IMG/VR virus record: IMGVR_UViG_3300042197_002821
Coordinates: 1-56,144 of that record
Direction: 5' to 3' (one strand)
DNA from: a virus
Length of the DNA: 56,144 nt
The notes beneath the pieces were generated by a model. It saw nothing but the letters and a program-made list of their open reading frames with translations. It made no database searches and was not told where the DNA came from. Each line of letters begins with the position of its first letter. The stretch's first letter is position 1. The translations under genes and the position numbers were made by a program. This document shows, in pieces, positions 52 through 47,929 of this stretch.

Positions 52-126
52 GGTTCCATAGTATATCGGTTAGTATAGCGCCCTGTCACGGCGCAGGGAC
101 GGGTTCGACTCCCGTTGGGACCGCCA
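52..126 (+). tRNA. tRNA-Asp(GTC)
   Basis: Cloverleaf with a 7-bp acceptor stem (ggttcca/tgggacc), anticodon loop ctgtcac and an encoded CCA end. First gene of a dense phage tRNA array. The 51 bases before it hold no recognisable gene. Confidence 0.95.
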
Positions 127-135
127 AAGTTTCTT

Positions 136-211
<76 letters not shown>

Positions 212-218
212 ATTTTAT

Positions 219-294
219 GCACCATTCGTCTAGAGGCCTAGGACACCACCCTTTCACGGTGGGTACACCGGTTCGAATCCGGTATGGTGTACCA
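219..294 (+). tRNA. tRNA-Glu(TTC)
   Basis: Acceptor gcaccat/atggtgt, anticodon loop ctttcac in a ccacc/ggtgg stem, encoded CCA. Confidence 0.95.
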
Positions 295-302
295 TTTTTA
301 TC

Positions 303-377
303 GCGGGTATAATTCAGGGGTAGAATGTTTCCTTGCCAAGGAAAATGCCGTCGGTTCGAATCCGACTACCCGCTCCA
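303..377 (+). tRNA. tRNA-Gly(GCC)
   Basis: Acceptor gcgggta/tacccgc, anticodon loop ttgccaa in a tttcc/ggaaa stem, encoded CCA. A second Gly tRNA (TCC) lies at 2135. Confidence 0.95.
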
Positions 378-383
378 AGTTTT

Positions 384-478
384 GCTCCCATAGCTTAATG
401 GTAAAGCTCCCGGCTTATATCCGGGCGATGCCTCTAGATGAGGGGATGATCTAGGTTCGAATCCTAGTGGGAGTACCA
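384..478 (+). tRNA. tRNA-Ile(TAT) with an unusually long variable arm
   Basis: The 95-nt fold has acceptor gctccca/tgggagt, anticodon stem cccgg/ccggg with loop cttatat (anticodon TAT, reading ATA) and a variable region of about 25 nt that can form a hairpin. A long variable arm is normal for Leu, Ser and Tyr tRNAs but not Ile. ATA codons are common in this phage, so an ATA reader makes sense. Amino-acid identity is inferred from the anticodon only. Confidence 0.75.
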
Positions 479-482
479 ATAT

Positions 483-558
483 GTATCCTTAGTGTTTAAC
501 GGCAGCACGACAGTCTCCAAAACTGCTAGTGGGGGTTCGAATCCCTCAGGGTACGCCA
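483..558 (+). tRNA. tRNA-Trp(CCA)
   Basis: Acceptor gtatcct/agggtac, anticodon loop ctccaaa, encoded CCA. The outermost anticodon-stem pair is a mismatch. Confidence 0.9.
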
Positions 559-568
559 AACAATTCAT

Positions 569-646
569 GCAACGGTGGCGGAGTGGCCCAACGCAAGAGT
601 CTGCAAAACTCTAACCCCGTGAGTTCGAATCTCACCCGTTGCTCCA
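569..646 (+). tRNA. tRNA-Cys(GCA)
   Basis: Acceptor gcaacgg/ccgttgc, anticodon loop ctgcaaa in an agagt/actct stem, encoded CCA. Confidence 0.95.
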
Positions 647-651
647 AACAT

Positions 652-739
652 GGAAGAGTGGTCGAGTGGTCTATGGCTCTAGTCTTGAAAACTAGCGGCT
701 CGCGAGGGTCCGTGGGTTCGAATCCCACCTCTTCCTCCA
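652..739 (+). tRNA. tRNA-Ser(TGA)
   Basis: Acceptor ggaagag/ctcttcc, anticodon loop cttgaaa in a ctagt/actag stem, long variable arm as expected for Ser, encoded CCA. Confidence 0.95.
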
Positions 740-762
740 ATTTTATTTCTAGGAGATTTATC

Positions 763-810
763 ATGACTGATTCAGAAATTTGGAAGTTTATTAAAAACAA
801 CTATCAATAG
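763..810 (+). CDS. 15-residue micro-ORF between tRNAs
   Basis: A 15-codon frame (begins MTDSEIWKF) sits between tRNA-Ser and a damaged tRNA-Ile. It has a clear ribosome binding site (aggag, 752-756) seven bases before its ATG. Its TAG stop overlaps the first bases of the expected acceptor strand of the following tRNA. Function unknown. It may be a short peptide gene or a spacer that recruits ribosomes; nothing distinguishes these. Confidence 0.4.
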   Translation: MTDSEIWKFIKNNYQ

Positions 811-885
811 CCACATAGCTCAGTCGGTTAGAGCACCATGTTGATAACGCGGGGGTCGTTGGTTCGAATCCTAGTTCCCCTGCCA
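809..885 (+). pseudogene. Damaged tRNA-Ile(GAT)-like sequence
   Basis: D arm, anticodon loop (ttgataa, GAT), T loop (ttcgaat) and a CCA end are present in normal spacing. The two acceptor strands (agccaca and ttcccct) pair at only three of seven positions, and the T stem has two mismatches. The 5' strand coincides with the end of the preceding micro-ORF. It is unlikely to be aminoacylated unless repaired, so it is called a pseudo-tRNA. Confidence 0.6.
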
Positions 886-889
886 AAGA

Positions 890-974
890 GTTCCGATCAT
901 CGCAGTGAGTGCAGCCGGCCGCCTATAAGGTTAGGGATGATCGTGCCGTCGCGGGTAAGCGGTGCCTCGGGAAC
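890..974 (+). ncRNA. Structured inter-tRNA RNA segment
   Basis: The 85 nt between two tRNA genes have no convincing reading frame but can fold. Outer strands gttcc (890-894) and ggaac (970-974) pair, and gatcatc (895-901) pairs with gatgatc (936-942). No anticodon or T loop is visible. It could be a small RNA or a processing spacer; the fold was judged by eye. Confidence 0.3.
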
Positions 975-976
975 AT

Positions 977-1051
977 CGGTCCGTAGCTCAGTGGAAGAGT
1001 TCTGGTCTTCGAAACCAGCAGTCGGGAGTTCGAATCTCTCCGGACCGGCCA
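977..1051 (+). tRNA. tRNA-Arg(TCG)
   Basis: Acceptor cggtccg/cggaccg, anticodon loop cttcgaa in a ctggt/accag stem, T stem gggag/ctctc, encoded CCA. Confidence 0.95.
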
Positions 1052-1070
1052 AACATAAAAGGAGAATCTT

Positions 1071-1274
1071 ATGAAACTCGTGATGTTTAGAAATCGTGTC
1101 AATGGCGAGCGATTCGTCTGCGAAGATGTTCGTGCCGTTGAAGTCATAGACGGTGTGGAATATCTCACGGTACATCGCCCCAATGAACAGAGATCGTTTA
1201 AGATGCGCAGAGATGCGCTGGAGAAAGATACCGCCGTGGTGAAAGGGATATCACGAAACTTTGCGAAGGTTTAG
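1071..1274 (+). CDS. Small conserved-looking protein inside the tRNA array
   Basis: A 67-residue protein beginning MKLVMFRNRV with an AAGGAG ribosome binding site nine bases upstream. It is rich in charged residues and looks like a small beta-rich domain (VEVIDGVEYLTVHR). No family is recognised. It lies between tRNA-Arg(TCG) and an orphan tRNA 3' end that starts at its stop codon, which suggests it replaced or was inserted into a tRNA gene. Being a real gene is supported by the ribosome site and composition; function is unknown. Confidence 0.7.
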   Translation: MKLVMFRNRVNGERFVCEDVRAVEVIDGVEYLTVHRPNEQRSFKMRRDALEKDTAVVKGISRNFAKV

Positions 1275-1304
1275 TTTTAGGTTCGAGTCCTAACGGGGGT
1301 GCCA
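1271..1304 (+). pseudogene. Orphan tRNA 3' end (T arm, acceptor strand, CCA)
   Basis: The sequence has a T arm (ttagg, ttcgagt, cctaa) followed by cgggggt, a discriminator G and CCA. No matching 5' acceptor strand (acccccg) exists upstream; the space is taken by the 67-residue ORF. This looks like the remnant of a tRNA whose 5' part was lost. Confidence 0.55.
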
Positions 1305-1310
1305 AACGAT

Positions 1311-1386
1311 GCAGGGGATAGTGTACCGGTGCGCACAACTGTCTGTGAAACAGTAAGATAGGGTTCAACTCCCGTCCACCTGCCCA
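1311..1386 (+). tRNA. tRNA-His(GTG)
   Basis: The anticodon loop ctgtgaa sits in an actgt/acagt stem. A G precedes position 1 and faces C73, the identity pair of tRNA-His. CCA is encoded. One acceptor mismatch and a weak T stem (three pairs) are seen. Confidence 0.85.
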
Positions 1387-1388
1387 AA

Positions 1389-1464
1389 CCTGCTTTTGTA
1401 GATATGGTTATTACGCCGGTCTGAAGAGCCGGAGAACTCCGATCGTAACGGAGAGGCGGGACCA
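1389..1464 (+). tRNA. tRNA-Phe(GAA)
   Basis: Acceptor cctgctt/aggcggg (with G-U pairs), anticodon loop ctgaaga, encoded CCA. The T loop reads atcgtaa rather than the usual ttcgaat form, so TTC is not conserved at its start. Confidence 0.8.
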
Positions 1465-1470
1465 AATATT

Positions 1471-1542
1471 GCCCCTGCAGATGGAGCTGTGCCAGGCCTT
1501 CTAAGCCAGGTTATGAGGGTTCGAATCCTTCCGGGGGCGCCA
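1471..1542 (+). tRNA. tRNA-Arg(TCT), first copy
   Basis: Acceptor gcccctg/cgggggc, anticodon loop cttctaa, T loop ttcgaat, encoded CCA. Only 72 nt long with a shrunken D arm and one anticodon-stem mismatch. A normal Arg(TCT) gene lies at 2216, so this copy may be decaying or specialised. Confidence 0.75.
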
Positions 1543-1550
1543 TATAATCG

Positions 1551-1579
1551 TTGACTGAATACGAGAACGAATATATAAT
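1551..1579 (+). promoter_or_regulatory. Sigma70-type promoter inside the tRNA array
   Basis: TTGACT (1551-1556), 17-base spacer, TATAAT (1574-1579). It would start RNA about ten bases before tRNA-Leu at 1596 and so serve the second half of the array. Confidence 0.75.
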
Positions 1580-1595
1580 AGACAAAGTTAGTAAC

Positions 1596-1678
1596 GCCCC
1601 GGTGGTGGAATGGTAGACACGCTGGTCTTAGAAGCCAGTGCCAAAAGCGTGAGAGTTCGAGTCTCTCCTGGGGCACCA
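1596..1678 (+). tRNA. tRNA-Leu(TAG)
   Basis: Acceptor gccccgg/ctggggc, anticodon loop cttagaa in a ctggt/gccag stem, long variable arm, encoded CCA. Confidence 0.95.
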
Positions 1679-1684
1679 AAATAT

Positions 1685-1777
1685 GGAGCATTGACCGAGA
1701 GGCTTAAGGTACTTTCCTGCTAAGAAAGAGTCTGGTGATAAACTGGACCGTTGGTTCGAATCCAACATGCTCCGCCA
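1685..1777 (+). tRNA. tRNA-Ser(GCT)
   Basis: Acceptor ggagcat/atgctcc, anticodon loop ctgctaa in a ctttc/gaaag stem, long variable arm, encoded CCA. Confidence 0.95.
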
Positions 1778-1794
1778 ACAAGAAAGGAAAGACC

Positions 1795-1878
1795 ATGACT
1801 AGAAAAGTTGTTGACAATATTGGATTCTTTTGTTTGGGTATCGTGTCTTATCATTTAATTTTAAGTTTCGGAGTGTAG
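1795..1878 (+). CDS. 27-residue micro-ORF with a hydrophobic segment
   Basis: A 27-codon frame starting MTRKVVDNIG with a good ribosome binding site (aaagg, 1783-1787). The middle (FFCLGIVSYHLIL) is hydrophobic enough for one membrane segment. Its stop codon lies inside the first bases of tRNA-Pro, so both would be read from one transcript. Function unknown; possibly a small membrane peptide. Confidence 0.4.
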   Translation: MTRKVVDNIGFFCLGIVSYHLILSFGV

Positions 1879-1945
1879 GTCAGCCTGGTAGACCGCTGCG
1901 TTTGGGACGCAGATGTCGCGAGTTCAAATCTTGCCACTCCGACCA
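1869..1945 (+). tRNA. tRNA-Pro(TGG)
   Basis: Acceptor cggagtg/cactccg, anticodon loop tttggga in a ctgcg/cgcag stem, encoded CCA. The 5' end overlaps the end of a micro-ORF. Confidence 0.95.
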
Positions 1946-1953
1946 GTTTTATC

Positions 1954-2029
1954 GCGCGGTTAGCTCAGTTGGTAGAGCTTCTCGCTTACACCGAGGAGGT
2001 CGGCGGTTCGAGTCCGTCACCGCGCACCA
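1954..2029 (+). tRNA. tRNA-Val(TAC)
   Basis: Acceptor gcgcggt/accgcgc, anticodon loop cttacac, encoded CCA. Confidence 0.95.
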
Positions 2030-2052
2030 GATTAAATTATAAGTATTATCAA

Positions 2053-2126
2053 GCCCCATTAGCATGAAGGTCGTGCAGCCGCCTTGTAAGCGGCAGGTGA
2101 TAGTTCAATTCTGTCATGGGGCACCA
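2053..2126 (+). tRNA. tRNA-Thr(TGT)
   Basis: Acceptor gccccat/atggggc, anticodon loop cttgtaa in a gccgc/gcggc stem, encoded CCA. Confidence 0.95.
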
Positions 2127-2134
2127 AGTTTTAA

Positions 2135-2208
2135 GCGGCGGTCGTATAATGGTAATACCCTAGCCTTCCAAGCTAGAGCCGCGGGTTCGATTCCCGCTCG
2201 CCGCTCCA
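2135..2208 (+). tRNA. tRNA-Gly(TCC)
   Basis: Acceptor gcggcgg/tcgccgc, anticodon loop cttccaa in a ctagc/gctag stem, encoded CCA. Confidence 0.95.
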
Positions 2209-2215
2209 AAGATAT

Positions 2216-2291
2216 CCGCCCTTAGCTCAGGGGACAGAGCAACAGCCTTCTAAGCTGTGGGTCGCACGTTCGATTCGTGCAGGGCGGGCCA
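2216..2291 (+). tRNA. tRNA-Arg(TCT), second copy
   Basis: Acceptor ccgccct/agggcgg, anticodon loop cttctaa in an acagc/gctgt stem, normal D and T arms, encoded CCA. Confidence 0.95.
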
Positions 2292-2306: not shown

Positions 2307-2335
2307 TTTACAATCCGAGTTTTATATCTTATAAT
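2307..2335 (+). promoter_or_regulatory. Sigma70-type promoter of rpoZ
   Basis: TTTACA (2307-2312), 17-base spacer, TATAAT (2330-2335). Predicted RNA start is near 2342, which rules out the upstream ATG at 2303 as the start of rpoZ. Confidence 0.8.
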
Positions 2336-2356: not shown

Positions 2357-2560
2357 ATGGCGAGAATTACTTCAGAAAAAGCTGTAGAGATCATGGGCAA
2401 TAAATTCGAGTTGATCCTAGTGGCAGCGGCCAGAGCCAGAGAACTAGCTCGAGGAAGTAGACCTCTAGTAGAATCCACCAATGGTACGGTAGTCACGGCT
2501 CTCAGAGAAATCGAAGCAGGAAAGATAGACAAGAAAGAATACCTAAGGAAAAGAAAATGA
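2357..2560 (+). CDS. rpoZ: RNA polymerase omega subunit
   Basis: This 67-residue protein matches bacterial RNA polymerase omega almost end to end: MARIT at the start, then [21 protein letters not shown], and [10 protein letters not shown], each at the spacing of E. coli RpoZ. It lacks the longer acidic C-terminal tail of the E. coli protein and ends in a short basic tail. Omega binds the beta-prime subunit, helps polymerase assembly and affects promoter choice. The start at 2357 is set by the homology and by the promoter just upstream. It overlaps the next gene by four bases (ATGA). An omega subunit is very unusual in a phage; it could compete with host omega to retune the host enzyme (inference). 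Confidence 0.93.
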
Positions 2561-3120
2561 AAATCAGCCTCAGAAAAGCCAACGCCATCCAGACATCGAT
2601 CAACGATGCGGTCCGTGCCCTAAGCTTCGAGACCACCGTGCGGATCAACGAATTCGAAAATCCCGAGCAGAAAATCTCAGAGGCACGAGCGGAATTCAAT
2701 CGCAATTTGGATAGAAAGATCGATCTGGATCTAGTATTGTACAGCATCCGCAAATCAGTGGGCGCTGCCAATCACACATCAGGCATCGACGGTCGTCTAG
2801 CCGATGTGGCCAGGATCGAAAAACAGATCCAACTGCTGACTGGGTTTTCCAAAGACCGAGTCAGAGAGTCTGCGTCAGTGATCTCAGGTAAACTGGAAAA
2901 GATCAAAGCTCGCAAAGAAGATTCTTTCTACGGGCGCGAAGCAGAAATCGCTACATCGATCTTTGACCGAGCGGATGTTACCAGATTCAAAGAGTCATTG
3001 GCTGCCCTGCGCAAAGAAAAACAGCGCATCCAGGACGAGATCCTTGAGCTCAATGTCCGCACTGAGATCACCCTCAGCGATGACGAAGTGGCCATACTCA
3101 AGGTAGACGGCATCGTTTGA
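2557..3120 (+). CDS. Coiled-coil protein of unknown function
   Basis: A 187-residue charged, mostly helical protein translationally coupled to rpoZ. Residues about 75-150 look like a long helical hairpin (repeated RxxxIxxL patterns around KQIQLLTGF and [15 protein letters not shown]). No catalytic motif or known family is recognised. Coupling to rpoZ hints at a transcription-related partner, but this is inference from position only. Confidence 0.8.
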
Positions 3121-3125
3121 TTTCG

Positions 3126-3199
3126 TGCGGGATATTGAAATGGCATCATGGAGGTCTCATAAGCCTCCGTTCCTGGTTCGACTCCGGGTCCCGCTACCA
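3126..3199 (+). tRNA. tRNA-Met(CAT) with a 1:72 mismatch
   Basis: Anticodon loop ctcataa in a gaggt/gcctc stem, T arm cctgg/ccggg, discriminator A and encoded CCA. Six acceptor pairs form (gcggga/tcccgc) while the first and last positions are T and T. An unpaired 1:72 is a hallmark of bacterial initiator tRNA, but the three G-C pairs expected in an initiator anticodon stem are missing. Elongator, initiator or Ile(CAT) identity is open. Confidence 0.75.
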
Positions 3200-3486
3200 G
3201 TTTTGCCAGTTTCGTAAAACTGGCCGGTGACATGGGGGGTAGATGAGGATAGACACACCGTGTTTGGCCAAAAAGCCAAAGACACCTTTGACGACTGCGA
3301 CTGAAAATCGCGACGTGCTTGTGTGCGCCGATTCATACCTAACATAGATTGTCATTTGCTGATCGGAAATAGGCAGGCCTCTGTGGATTGTAGATTGAGG
3401 TTTGTTTGGGGAGTTTCTCGATGAGAGCTCCTGCTTGCATGTTGTCCGGTCTATTACTTGACCCTCCTTGGATCCGTTCATAACCG
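3200..3486 (+). other. Non-coding stretch with hairpins
   Basis: About 290 bases without a convincing gene. Visible hairpins are gccagttt/aaactggc (3205-3224, loop cgta) and tttggc/gccaaa (3263-3280). Neither is followed by a T run. Minus-strand frames here lack ribosome sites and protein-like composition. It may hold an untranslated RNA or the downstream part of the tRNA transcript. Confidence 0.4.
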
Positions 3487-3515
3487 TTGACAACTCCTTA
3501 AAAAGATCATATACT
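3487..3515 (+). promoter_or_regulatory. Sigma70-type promoter of a tRNA-like RNA
   Basis: TTGACA (3487-3492), 17-base spacer, TATACT (3510-3515). The seventh base after the -10 box is 3522, the first base of the acceptor-like stem of the downstream RNA. Confidence 0.85.
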
Positions 3516-3521
3516 CAGTGT

Positions 3522-3624
3522 GTGACCGTAAGCAAACGGGGAAAGCTCTACGTCGTTAATCAGCGATGTCAGGAAGGGACTAGGCCATTGGCCGTCTTTG
3601 GGGGTTCGAGGCCCTCCGGTCACA
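3522..3624 (+). ncRNA. tRNA-like small RNA without CCA
   Basis: The 103-nt segment has a perfect 7-bp acceptor-like stem (gtgaccg/cggtcac), a D-like hairpin, an anticodon-like arm acgtcg/cgatgt with an 8-nt loop (ttaatcag), a strong variable-arm hairpin (ggcc att ggcc) and a T arm with ttcgagg. Unlike nearly all other RNAs of the array it does not encode CCA. It has its own promoter, which starts at its first base. It could be a class II tRNA (a UAA-reading Leu is the obvious missing species) or a tRNA mimic with another role. Confidence 0.6.
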
Positions 3625-3628
3625 GTAG

Positions 3629-3703
3629 CTCTCCGTAGTTCAATGGATAGAACAAGACACTCCTAAGGTTTAGATCCTGGTTCGATTCCGGGCGGAGAGG
3701 CCA
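3629..3703 (+). tRNA. tRNA-Arg(CCT)
   Basis: Acceptor ctctccg/cggagag, anticodon loop ctcctaa, T arm cctgg/ccggg, encoded CCA. The loop-closing anticodon-stem pair is an A-G mismatch. With TCG and two TCT genes it makes four Arg tRNAs. Confidence 0.85.
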
Positions 3704-7745: not shown

Positions 7746-9389
7746 ATGTCTGAAACCAAAGAATATATCGTCACTCTACATCGCAGAGAAGATCTCGAGC
7801 AGTTCTATGAGGACATGGAAACTCCTGGTGGTGATCTATGCATACCAGATCGCAGAGTAGACATAGCTGTACGAAGACCATCGAGTCGTAACACACATTA
7901 TTATCTCACAGATGAAGAAGCCAGCAATCTCAGGGCTGATCCTAGAGTGGCAGCCGTCGAAGTACGTCCCGAACAACAGGGTATAGAAAGGAAACCTTCC
8001 TATACACAAACGTCTGACGACTGGGATAAAGCAAGCACAGCAAGCAGCCTAGACAAGAACTGGGGCCTGCTGAGATGCGTAGAAGGTCAACAAAGGACCA
8101 ATTGGGGCTCCAACGGTACCGCTAATCAATCAGGAACCGTGGCTCTCCCGACTCAGGGAAAAAACGTCGATGTGGTCATAGTTGACGGAATGATAGATCC
8201 TGCCCATCCTGAATTCGCTGTCAACGCCGATGGTACTGGCGGGACCAGAGTCGTTCAGTATAATTGGTTCCAGCACAATCCCGCTGTCTCGGGAACGGCA
8301 GCTGGCAACTATATCTATACCCCGTATATAGATGGCAGTGACCCCGATCGCACAGACGACAACAATCACGGACAACACGTCGCGGGCACTGTAGCCGGAA
8401 ACACACAAGGTTGGGCCAGACAGGCCAATATCTATAATATCAATCCATACAGCACTGATATCAACAGCGTAGATGATTTATTAATAATGGATTACGTAAG
8501 AGAGTTCCATAACAATAAGCCTGTAAATCCCTCTACGGGAAGAAGGAATCCTACTATCTGCAATCACAGCTGGGGATATTTCTATACATTTCCTATCAGC
8601 GGAGTCACTGGAATATTTTTCCAAGGAGTTTATACAGCTGGCCCGTTCACTGAAGCTGAGCTACGGTCCTACGGTGTCTATACTTTCGTATCGAATGGTA
8701 TCACTGTGTTTACTGCACCGGCGAGATATCCAGCGTTTGATGCAGACATGCAAGATGCCATAGATGATGGTGTCATACAAGTCGGAGCAGCCGGAAACAG
8801 CTACATGAAAATGGACATCAATGGTGGCATAGATTTTGATAATCTAGTAGTTTGGAGCGACGGCATTTCTAATTTTGGAATATATTATCACGAAGGTGGT
8901 AGTCCGACTTCTGCCAGCAATGTAATCTGCGTAGGCGCAGTCGGTGCGCTGGCCAACGAGACCAAAGCTTCTTTCAGTAACTGCGGACCTCGAGTCGATA
9001 TATATGCTCCTGGGCAGTGGATCATGAGCAGCCTACATACCGGCAGCGTACAGGATCCTAGAAACTCTTCTTATGTCAACGGAAAGTATCAAGGAACCAG
9101 CATGGCCAGCCCACAGGTCTGCGGAGTATTAGCCTGTGCCTTGGAAACCTATCCTAGCATGACACAATCGCAGTGCCGAGACTATATATTTGCCTATAGC
9201 AAACAGTCTCAGGTCACAGACACTGGCGGGTCTTACACTGATTTCACTTCCTTACAAGGATCTGCTAACAGATATCTGTTCTATTACAAAGAACGCGACG
9301 TCGTTGGAAACATCTATCCAAAAGTCAACTATTCATTACGGGCTAGTTCTTCCGTAAAATATCCCCGAGTTCGGATAAGAAGGTCTTGA
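7746..9389 (+). CDS. Subtilisin-like serine protease
   Basis: A 547-residue S8-family peptidase with its full catalytic triad: Asp in VVIVDGMID (about residue 147), His in NNHGQHVAGTVAG (about 206), and Ser in GTSMASPQVCG (about 455), plus the oxyanion Asn in GAAGNSY. The first 90 residues look like an inhibitor-type prodomain. No signal peptide is seen. It follows the fibre-like gene by three bases in a late-promoter unit, so it is probably a virion-associated or maturation protease. Candidate jobs are processing fibres or degrading host surface proteins. Confidence 0.9.
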   Translation: MSETKEYIVTLHRREDLEQFYEDMETPGGDLCIPDRRVDIAVRRPSSRNTHYYLTDEEASNLRADPRVAAVEVRPEQQGIERKPSYTQTSDDWDKASTASSLDKNWGLLRCVEGQQRTNWGSNGTANQSGTVALPTQGKNVDVVIVDGMIDPAHPEFAVNADGTGGTRVVQYNWFQHNPAVSGTAAGNYIYTPYIDGSDPDRTDDNNHGQHVAGTVAGNTQGWARQANIYNINPYSTDINSVDDLLIMDYVREFHNNKPVNPSTGRRNPTICNHSWGYFYTFPISGVTGIFFQGVYTAGPFTEAELRSYGVYTFVSNGITVFTAPARYPAFDADMQDAIDDGVIQVGAAGNSYMKMDINGGIDFDNLVVWSDGISNFGIYYHEGGSPTSASNVICVGAVGALANETKASFSNCGPRVDIYAPGQWIMSSLHTGSVQDPRNSSYVNGKYQGTSMASPQVCGVLACALETYPSMTQSQCRDYIFAYSKQSQVTDTGGSYTDFTSLQGSANRYLFYYKERDVVGNIYPKVNYSLRASSSVKYPRVRIRRS

Positions 9390-16958: not shown

Positions 16959-17169
16959 GGAAGTCTGTAAAGTGACCTGTGAGGACAACGATCGAGTCGT
17001 AGACGCAGATGTACTAGATTTCAGAGAAGAAAAGATGCTGATCGTCAGTTTAAATAAAAGCATCAAATTAACCATGCCATGGAACGGAAAGATCTACGAA
17101 GGCAAGCTCGCAGGTAAAAGTTTCGTTTCACAGGGGCCAAAAGGATACACTTACAAGGAAGGTAGATAA
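16942..17169 (+). CDS. Hypothetical 75-residue protein upstream of clpP
   Basis: A small beta-rich protein (begins [10 protein letters not shown]) that looks like a compact barrel. It overlaps both neighbours and directly precedes clpP. It could be an adaptor or specificity factor for the protease, but only position suggests this. Confidence 0.7.
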
Positions 17170-17762
17170 TGCCAAATCTAGTACCAGTAGTAGTAGAATC
17201 AACCAACAAAGGCGAACGTGCCTACGATATCTATTCGAGGCTGTTAAAAGATCGGGTAGTCATGCTAGACGGTGCCGTAGAAGAACACAGCGCCAGCTTA
17301 TTGGTCAGCCAATTATTGTTCTTAGAATCAGAAAGCTCTGAAAAAGATATCTATCTTTACATCAACAGTCCCGGGGGTATCATAACCTCAGGCATGGCCA
17401 TCTACGACACCATGCAGTTTATTGGACCAGATGTCTGCACCATCGTCATGGGACAGGCCTGTTCTATGGGCAGTTTCCTAGCACAGGCTGGAGCCCCTGG
17501 GAAACGTTGGATGTTGCCCAATGCCAGGCACATGATACACCAACCCAGTGGAGGTGCTCGAGGTATGGCCTCTGACATCGAAATCAGCTACAACGAGATC
17601 ATGTTTTGGAAACGTCGACTCACTGAGCTATATGTCAAACACAACACCGCGGGCAAGACCTATGGGGATTTCGAGAGAGATATGGATCGAGATACCTTCA
17701 TGAGCGCAGACGCTGCTCTAGCCTATGGTCTGGTAGACAAAATCATCGAACGGAGAGAATAA
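17169..17762 (+). CDS. clpP: ClpP protease subunit
   Basis: A 197-residue S14 peptidase of normal ClpP length. The N-terminal block [17 protein letters not shown], the INSPGG loop, catalytic Ser99 (GQACSMGS), His124 (MIHQPSGG) and the Asp in [17 protein letters not shown] are all present. ClpP forms a tetradecameric chamber that needs an AAA+ unfoldase. This window also has a ClpA-type unfoldase with an IGF loop (45686), so a full phage Clp protease is possible. The start overlaps the previous stop; the next gene overlaps its own stop. Confidence 0.94.
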
Positions 17763-45685: not shown

Positions 45686-47929
45686 ATGGTAGAACCCAGT
45701 GATCAACTTACCTCAGTATTCGAAAAAGCCGTCAGTGACTGCAAAAAACTAGACCACGAATACGTAACTCTAGAACATCTGATCTTTGCGATGTTCTGCG
45801 AAGAAAAGTTCTACGACCTAATATCTAACTTTGGTGCCGATGCCGATTATATCAAAGTTTCCCTAGAACACTATCTAAAAAACAATCTCACTGAGATCAA
45901 GATCGCAGAACCTACTAAGAATTTCAAACCCAAGAAAACACAGGCCGTAGAACGTGTGCTTAACCGAGCGTTCACGCAGGTCCTGTTCAGTGGCCGGCAG
46001 AACATAGAGTTGGTAGATGTGTTCCTAGCGGCTCTCAGCGAAAAGAGATCATACGCTGTCTACTATGTTACCAAAGGCGGCATAGACAAAGATAAGTTTG
46101 CTGAGTTCATCAACTCAGAAGCACCTGACGAGGAAATGCCAGCCAATGACTCACAGTTGGAAAAAGCTCTCAAAGAATACACTACCAATCTCAACGAACA
46201 GACCAAGAAGAACAAGATCGATCCAGTGATCGGACGATCGGAGGAGCTAGAACAGATCGCGCTGGGACTTGGACGTAGGACCAAGAACAACGTCCTGCTA
46301 GTTGGCGATCCTGGTGTAGGTAAAACTGCGATCGCAGAAGGTCTGGCCTATAACATCGTCAATGGCAATGTTCCTAACTTCCTCAAAGAATACACCGTTT
46401 ATAATCTCGATATCAGCAGCATGTTGGCCGGTTCTAAATATCGAGGAGACTTCGAAGAACGTTTCAAGATCGTGCTAAAAGCTCTGCAGACCAAAGGCAA
46501 AACTGTGCTGTTCATCGACGAAGCCCATATGATCTCCGGTGCAGGCGCAGGAGGTGGCAACAGTTCCAACGATCTAGCCAACATGATGAAGCCTGCACTG
46601 AGCAAAGGCAACATCAAAGTAGTGGCATCTACTACCTGGGAAGAATATCGCAAATATTTCGAAAAAGATCGTGCCCTGATGCGCAGATTCCAAAGGATCA
46701 CGGTAGACGAACCGTCACCAGAAATGAGCATTGAGATCCTCAGAGGCATCAAAAAATACTACGAGGATCATCACAAAGTAGAAATCACCGACGAAGCTAT
46801 CCAATCGGCGGTAAAACTGTCAGTGAAATACATGAACGATAAAAAACTACCCGACAAGGCCATCGATTTGATCGATGTAGCCTGTTCTAGGTTTAATATC
46901 AAAGACAGCGATACTCGTGTGATCGGTACCCAGGAAGTGCAGTTTGAGCTCAGTAAAATGGTCAAACTGCCCGAAGAAACTATCAAGGAAAAAGAAAGCA
47001 ACAATCTCGCAGGATTAGATAAGAACCTCAAGAGCGAAGTCTACGGGCAAGATGAAGCCATCGATGAAGTCGTAGACAAGATATTAGTAGCTCAAGCAGG
47101 ACTGAAACCCGAAAACAAACCCATTGGTAGCTTCGTGTTTATGGGCCCCACTGGTGTTGGTAAGACTGAAGCTGCCAAGCAGATTTCTAAGCATCTTGGT
47201 ATTCCTATGATACGTTTCGATATGAGCGAATATCAAGAGAAGCACTCAGTGTCGAAATTGATCGGTAGTCCTCCGGGCTATGTGGGCTTCGAAGAAAACG
47301 CAGGATTGCTGATCACGAAATTGCAGGAAAATCCACACTGCGTTCTACTGCTAGATGAGATAGAGAAAAGCCATCCTGATGTCAGTACCATCCTTTTACA
47401 GTTGATGGACAATGGTTTCGTCACTGGCAGCAATGGCAAAGTCGCAGATGCCCGAAACGTGATATTGATCATGACCACAAACCTAGGCGCATCAGAGGCT
47501 GAGAAGCTAAAGATTGGCTTCGGCAATCAGGAAAACGAATACGAAGACAAAGAAATCAAGAAATTCTTTGCACCAGAATTCCGCAATCGCTTAGACGGAG
47601 TGATCAGATTCGGCAGCCTCAGCAAAGAAACTATGATCAAGATCGTGGGCAAATTCCTCGTCGAGCTCAAAGAACAGATCAAAGACAAAGAAATCAAGAT
47701 CAAGATCGACAACGATGCCATCGATTACCTCGTAGACAAAGGATTCGATCGCAAGATGGGTGCAAGACCTCTGCAACGGGTCATAGACAAAGAAATCAAG
47801 CGTCCTTTGAGCAAAATGATGCTGTTCGGAGACTTGAAAAATGGCGGGAAGCTGTCGATAAACGTGTCTAATGATGGTTTAGAACTGATCACTGAACCAA
47901 AAGAGGATCTAGTTTCCGAAAGCAACTGA
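45686..47929 (+). CDS. ClpA-type AAA+ unfoldase with IGF loop
   Basis: A 747-residue Clp/Hsp100 ATPase: N-domain (residues 1-145), first AAA+ with Walker A GDPGVGKT (207-214), second AAA+ with GPTGVGKT (about 486-493). There is no ClpB-type middle coil, and length matches ClpA (758). An IGF sequence in KLKIGFGNQ (about 609-613) is the ClpP-docking loop found in ClpA and ClpX but not ClpB. It can therefore pair with the phage ClpP (17169) or host ClpP. It shares a promoter with the J protein. Confidence 0.9.
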   Translation: MVEPSDQLTSVFEKAVSDCKKLDHEYVTLEHLIFAMFCEEKFYDLISNFGADADYIKVSLEHYLKNNLTEIKIAEPTKNFKPKKTQAVERVLNRAFTQVLFSGRQNIELVDVFLAALSEKRSYAVYYVTKGGIDKDKFAEFINSEAPDEEMPANDSQLEKALKEYTTNLNEQTKKNKIDPVIGRSEELEQIALGLGRRTKNNVLLVGDPGVGKTAIAEGLAYNIVNGNVPNFLKEYTVYNLDISSMLAGSKYRGDFEERFKIVLKALQTKGKTVLFIDEAHMISGAGAGGGNSSNDLANMMKPALSKGNIKVVASTTWEEYRKYFEKDRALMRRFQRITVDEPSPEMSIEILRGIKKYYEDHHKVEITDEAIQSAVKLSVKYMNDKKLPDKAIDLIDVACSRFNIKDSDTRVIGTQEVQFELSKMVKLPEETIKEKESNNLAGLDKNLKSEVYGQDEAIDEVVDKILVAQAGLKPENKPIGSFVFMGPTGVGKTEAAKQISKHLGIPMIRFDMSEYQEKHSVSKLIGSPPGYVGFEENAGLLITKLQENPHCVLLLDEIEKSHPDVSTILLQLMDNGFVTGSNGKVADARNVILIMTTNLGASEAEKLKIGFGNQENEYEDKEIKKFFAPEFRNRLDGVIRFGSLSKETMIKIVGKFLVELKEQIKDKEIKIKIDNDAIDYLVDKGFDRKMGARPLQRVIDKEIKRPLSKMMLFGDLKNGGKLSINVSNDGLELITEPKEDLVSESN

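Follow-up and report, generated by a model that had tools for sequence, protein, structure and literature searches.

The role of the omega subunit of RNA polymerase has long been disputed, since many bacteria can live without it; in Escherichia coli omega is dispensable. Nucleocytoplasmic large DNA viruses encode Rpb6/omega homologues, which are viral proteins of this superfamily; their Rpb6 comes with a full viral polymerase, unlike the phage omega described here, and the fold matches of these homologues to the phage protein are weak (E above 0.4). Jumbo phages of the phiKZ/AR9 type also use relatives of cellular polymerase subunits, and they encode β and β′ while alpha and omega are absent (PMC7598289). 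The phages of our study are the reverse case, in which omega was found without β or β′. Host omega is already contacted by phage-like regulators, for which the direct binding of GafA from the gene transfer agent RcGTA to host omega is a precedent (PMC9638019).

The omega gene described here lies in a 56-kb IMG/VR record, a jumbo-phage fragment that is called the window in the following. The open reading frame at positions 2357–2560 (plus strand) encodes 67 amino acids. An upstream in-frame ATG at 2303 is located 5′ of the −10 box (2330–2335), and the homologues begin at the MAR motif; therefore, 2357 is taken as the start, with AGGA at 2345–2348 as a plausible ribosome-binding site. The first-pass annotation had described this protein as matching RpoZ along its length, and profile searches bear this out. 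PF01192 matched with 56.3 bits (E 3.3e-15, cut-off 26) and TIGR00690 (rpoZ) with 53.4 bits (E 2e-14, cut-off 23.6) over residues 1–57, with no shift to another helical family, and in a phmmer search of the PDB, residues 1–60 matched E. coli omega (E 3e-12). In an AlphaFold2 model built with 29 phage sequences as input (pLDDT 83.5), the top PDB fold matches found by Foldseek were all E. coli omega chains (TM 0.83, E 6e-5). With bacterial RpoZ the window protein shares the domain, the short-omega length class (66–70 amino acids), the MAR motif and the predicted fold, and its identity to enterobacterial omega is about 53% across 60 residues. Profile, fold, tree and phage context together support that the product of 2357–2560 is a phage-encoded omega.

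Omega is small, universal in bacteria and easily captured, and contamination of public “phage” records is known: a phage collection gave six omega matches, all of which appear to be host DNA inside the records. We nevertheless consider it very improbable that the gene is a recently captured, functionless host rpoZ or a host contamination of the contig. It is surrounded by phage genes for a clamp loader, DNA ligase, a DNA polymerase fragment, tail-fibre and head proteins, endolysins and a spanin; the closest relatives of the ClpA-like protein of the window are jumbo-phage versions, and L002, another contig of this virus, shares 8,782 identical bases, omega included. In a maximum-likelihood tree of 70 columns, with bacterial rows from Pseudomonadota only that were collected with the phage profile, other phyla being unsampled, a single branch (SH-aLRT 99) parts 62 phage omegas from 36 Pseudomonadota omegas; the tree thus resolves this split and not the root or donor of the phage clade. 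The phage omegas are not nested among the Pseudomonadota omegas, which refutes contamination or recent capture for the family. They differ from bacterial RpoZ by the signatures S6 (91% of phage rows, against V in 97% of the bacterial ones), E29 (100%; Q in 91% of bacterial rows) and Y62 (89%), by the loss of K43, which is invariant across the bacterial set, and by the missing long C-terminal tail. Residues A9, G14, R26, E29, L30, A48, E51 and E53 are invariant among the phage omegas, and the conserved phage residues fall in the core that packs on β′ in known structures. The dN/dS ratio of 41 close pairs has a median of 0.11 and a maximum of 0.51; phage omegas evolve under purifying selection, which also argues against a functionless passenger. 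They form a large, old, virus-only branch of the omega family.

According to the first-pass annotation, few phage cases are known; phage-encoded omega is, however, not rare. A scan of IMG/VR with the window protein found relatives encoded at no fewer than 125 loci, the best 80 of which form 48 clusters at 90% identity together with the window copy, and a wider profile scan yielded at least 518 loci, some of which may be bacterial DNA. Omega is absent only from PHROGs, where no omega family exists, and from cultured phages; it was also not found in the named jumbo phages that share neighbor genes with the omega loci, namely Paride, Domovoi, Phosso, Atu_ph07, XaC1 and Vibrio 2.275.O. The literature searched, a scope to which most subscription journals and preprints did not belong, gave no description of a phage omega. 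Two database entries from uncultured Caudovirales phages named “DNA-directed RNA polymerase”, A0A6J5T227 and A0A6J7WH19, are 43% and 40% identical to the window omega, and their predicted structures match it with TM 0.82 and 0.68, respectively; the names are apparently annotation-only, and the literature searched does not describe either protein. Phage omega is already present as database entries; the window protein behaved as an omega in every analysis, and it belongs to a separate clade with an unusual setting.

This setting is a further difference to bacterial rpoZ, as the phage omega genes sit within phage tRNA arrays. A tRNA gene lies within 3 kb of omega in 79 of 87 distinct genes and within 1 kb in 64 of them, and the 20-kb flanks of the omega loci contain up to 38 tRNA genes. 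ARAGORN called 22 tRNA genes in the window, 20 of them in an array adjoining omega (52–2291, plus strand) and two further ones at 3126–3199 and 3629–3703. Two tRNA-like stretches that ARAGORN did not call, at 815–875 and 3522–3624 (plus strand), scored 31.6 and 23.4 bits with the Rfam tRNA model and are perhaps decayed or unusual tRNAs. The tRNA arrays of 6 of 23 scanned omega loci (L027, L041, L042, L045, L046 and L072) contain a tmRNA with tags such as ANDEVYALAA. Elsewhere on the plus strand, the window encodes a ClpP-like protease (17169–17762, 251 bits to PF00574) and a ClpA-like ATPase (45686–47929), which possibly constitute a complete phage Clp machine, as well as a subtilase-family protease (7746–9389, 107 bits to PF00082).

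A sigma70-type promoter, TTTACA-17-TATAAT, precedes omega at 2307–2335 (plus strand) with 11 of 12 consensus matches, in line with the promoter claimed in the first-pass annotation. Taken alone, a single site of this quality is weak evidence, as the window region contains seven such sites where 6.3 are expected by shuffling. However, a survey of the 100 nt upstream of 87 distinct phage omega genes found an 11–12/12 promoter in 18 of them (0.15 expected) and one of 10–12/12 in 27 (1.25 expected). The repetition across the 87 genes makes the promoter of the window omega credible and promoters at this position real in the family, and it is difficult to reconcile with a passenger gene. Sigma70-type promoters at omega genes also imply the host polymerase.

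Which polymerase the phage omega joins can be approached from 22 large omega-phage records (111–355 kb), which are metagenomic and not certified complete. Exactly one PF01192 match was present in each, whereas β′ (PF04998) and β (PF00562) were found in none of the 22; control genomes were positive in 14 of 14 cases. A phage-encoded multisubunit polymerase was rejected as the partner of omega on this basis. With one omega and neither β nor β′ in these records, only the host polymerase is available, and a partnership with it is the simplest reading. We hold the following role of phage omega likely. During infection, the phage protein would bind host β′ and enter the host enzyme, where it would replace or supplement host omega. 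The phage depends on this polymerase, and its omega would secure the assembly or stability of the enzyme; it would also mark the enzyme for phage transcription or tune it, possibly in its use of promoters, as the first-pass annotation had suggested. Several points speak against this explanation. What a phage would gain from a second omega is not obvious, given that E. coli can do without its own. The exchanges V6 to S and Q29 to E, the loss of K43 and the new Y62 could alter or abolish contacts with β′, and incomplete metagenomic records might still hide a divergent phage polymerase too distant for the search.

Binding of ppGpp by omega has been ascribed to the MAR motif (PMC9638019), and the first-pass annotation had suggested that the phage protein might change the ppGpp response of the host polymerase. 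One half of this idea agrees with the data, because the window omega begins with MARIT and so retains MAR of ppGpp site 1. The other half does not extend to the family: MAR starts 43 of 61 phage representatives and all 35 bacterial ones (Fisher p = 2e-4), so that it is lost in 18 of 61 phage representatives and in none of the 35 bacterial ones, and in a few phage representatives the whole segment is gone. Phage omega could act as a modulator that alters the polymerase response at site 1 and thereby allows phage genes to be transcribed in starved hosts, a reading to which the retained motif and an HD_4 (SpoT/MESH1-type) domain in 6 of the 22 large records would fit. However, retention of MARIT predicts normal and not altered ppGpp binding, and with MAR lost in 18 of 61 representatives such modulation cannot be a family-wide function. 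We therefore regard such a modulator as quite unlikely; ppGpp sensing is probably not what phage omegas have in common, while altered sensing may occur in single phages. Evasion of ppGpp as a shared function was likewise rejected, as the window omega has MAR and only some family members lack it. The HD_4 domains belong to L323–L328; in three of these records, which are closely related, they lie about 3–4 kb away from omega. Their presence in only 6 of 22 records excludes an HD_4 gene as a constant companion of omega, and we treat it as a lead and not as a rule.

Directly behind omega, at 2557–3120 (plus strand), the window encodes a protein of 187 amino acids that is all-helical in its predicted model (pLDDT 90). 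Its start overlaps the omega stop by four bases (ATGA), and therefore the two genes are probably translationally coupled. About a dozen other distinct phage omega loci have a homologue that follows omega immediately (gap −20 to +1), and distant homologues occur in PA5oct, Paride and Brevundimonas jumbo phages. A fold search with the 187-residue protein was not informative: its sole match, 3kdq (E 4e-3), is itself an unknown protein.

A second neighbor is a structured RNA of about 285 nt, of which an intact copy is located at 3195–3487 (plus strand); it scored 209.9 bits (E 2.5e-60) with a covariance model of 35 sequences, one of which is the window copy itself. The RNA came to light through a constant 21-mer, TGTCCGGTCTATTACTTGACC, that was first noticed upstream of omega in several relatives. 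The 21-mer is an invariant 3′ segment of the RNA (3443–3463, plus strand, in the window) and occurs exactly in 108 IMG/VR stretches; in some relatives, its TTGACC doubles as the −35 element of omega promoters. In 60 of 61 distinct places, some of them sorted by eye from translations, the 21-mer is followed by omega or the 187-aa gene within about 30–100 nt. The sole exception is the window virus, where the RNA lies behind the omega pair. Further copies without the exact 21-mer were found with the covariance model, and six copies away from omega (L003, L004, L024, L045, L199 and L229) are followed by the 187-aa gene within about 30 nt.

Across 35 diverse copies the RNA has 47 consensus pairs, 26 of which are changed on both sides; 98.2% of the cells are paired, a figure that is favored by the derivation of the structure from the same alignment. 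The double changes and the collapse upon sliding are still large, since the covariation of 0.429 falls to 0.06–0.09 if the partner strand is slid by 1–3 columns and to 0.189 upon shuffling. A sigma70 promoter (10–12/12) ends at the RNA 5′ end in 45 of 53 distinct copies, and five of the 53, the window among them, start at the CCA of a tRNA. The window copy stands behind the omega pair, and compensatory changes preserve its helices; this points to a stand-alone RNA and to more than a leader. Rfam gave no meaningful match up to E 10 for two copies, wider scans at gathering scores found only tRNA, and a sample of 150 Pseudomonadota genomes contained no copy under strict filters. RNase P, 6S RNA and tmRNA were rejected as identities of the RNA for lack of Rfam support, and a likeness of short motifs to RNase P that had been seen by eye was dropped for the same reason. 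From alignment and searches, the RNA probably represents a new RNA family.

These two neighbors bear on the main rival of the proposed role in assembly and tuning, according to which phage omega in the host polymerase mainly offers a surface for a phage factor, for example the RNA or the 187-aa protein. Omega and the 187-aa gene overlap or abut in about a dozen loci including the window virus, all three elements adjoin each other in related phages, the residues S6, E29 and Y62 are phage-specific, and GafA sets the precedent of docking on host omega (PMC9638019). However, the 187-aa gene lies within 8 kb of omega in only 18 of 89 phage omega loci, many loci have the RNA and the 187-aa gene with no omega between them, so that the parts are separable, and the fold of the 187-aa protein has no informative match. 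We consider this docking role possible, if somewhat doubtful. A bolder version, which appears rather unlikely to us, is that RNA, 187-aa protein and omega form a host-takeover module of giant tRNA-rich phages, in which an RNA-protein particle would reach the host polymerase via omega and the RNA would be a new structured RNA class. We continue to favor phage omega as a subunit that joins the host polymerase via β′.

In conclusion, our findings expose a blind spot, as neither PHROGs nor cultured phages contain the omega family, and the adjacent RNA qualifies as a strong candidate for a new family of structured RNAs. The data suggest that a lineage of uncultured giant phages has long kept an omega subunit without its own β and β′. 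A phage would not retain a subunit of 67 residues without gain, and the role of omega thereby becomes testable from the virus side.
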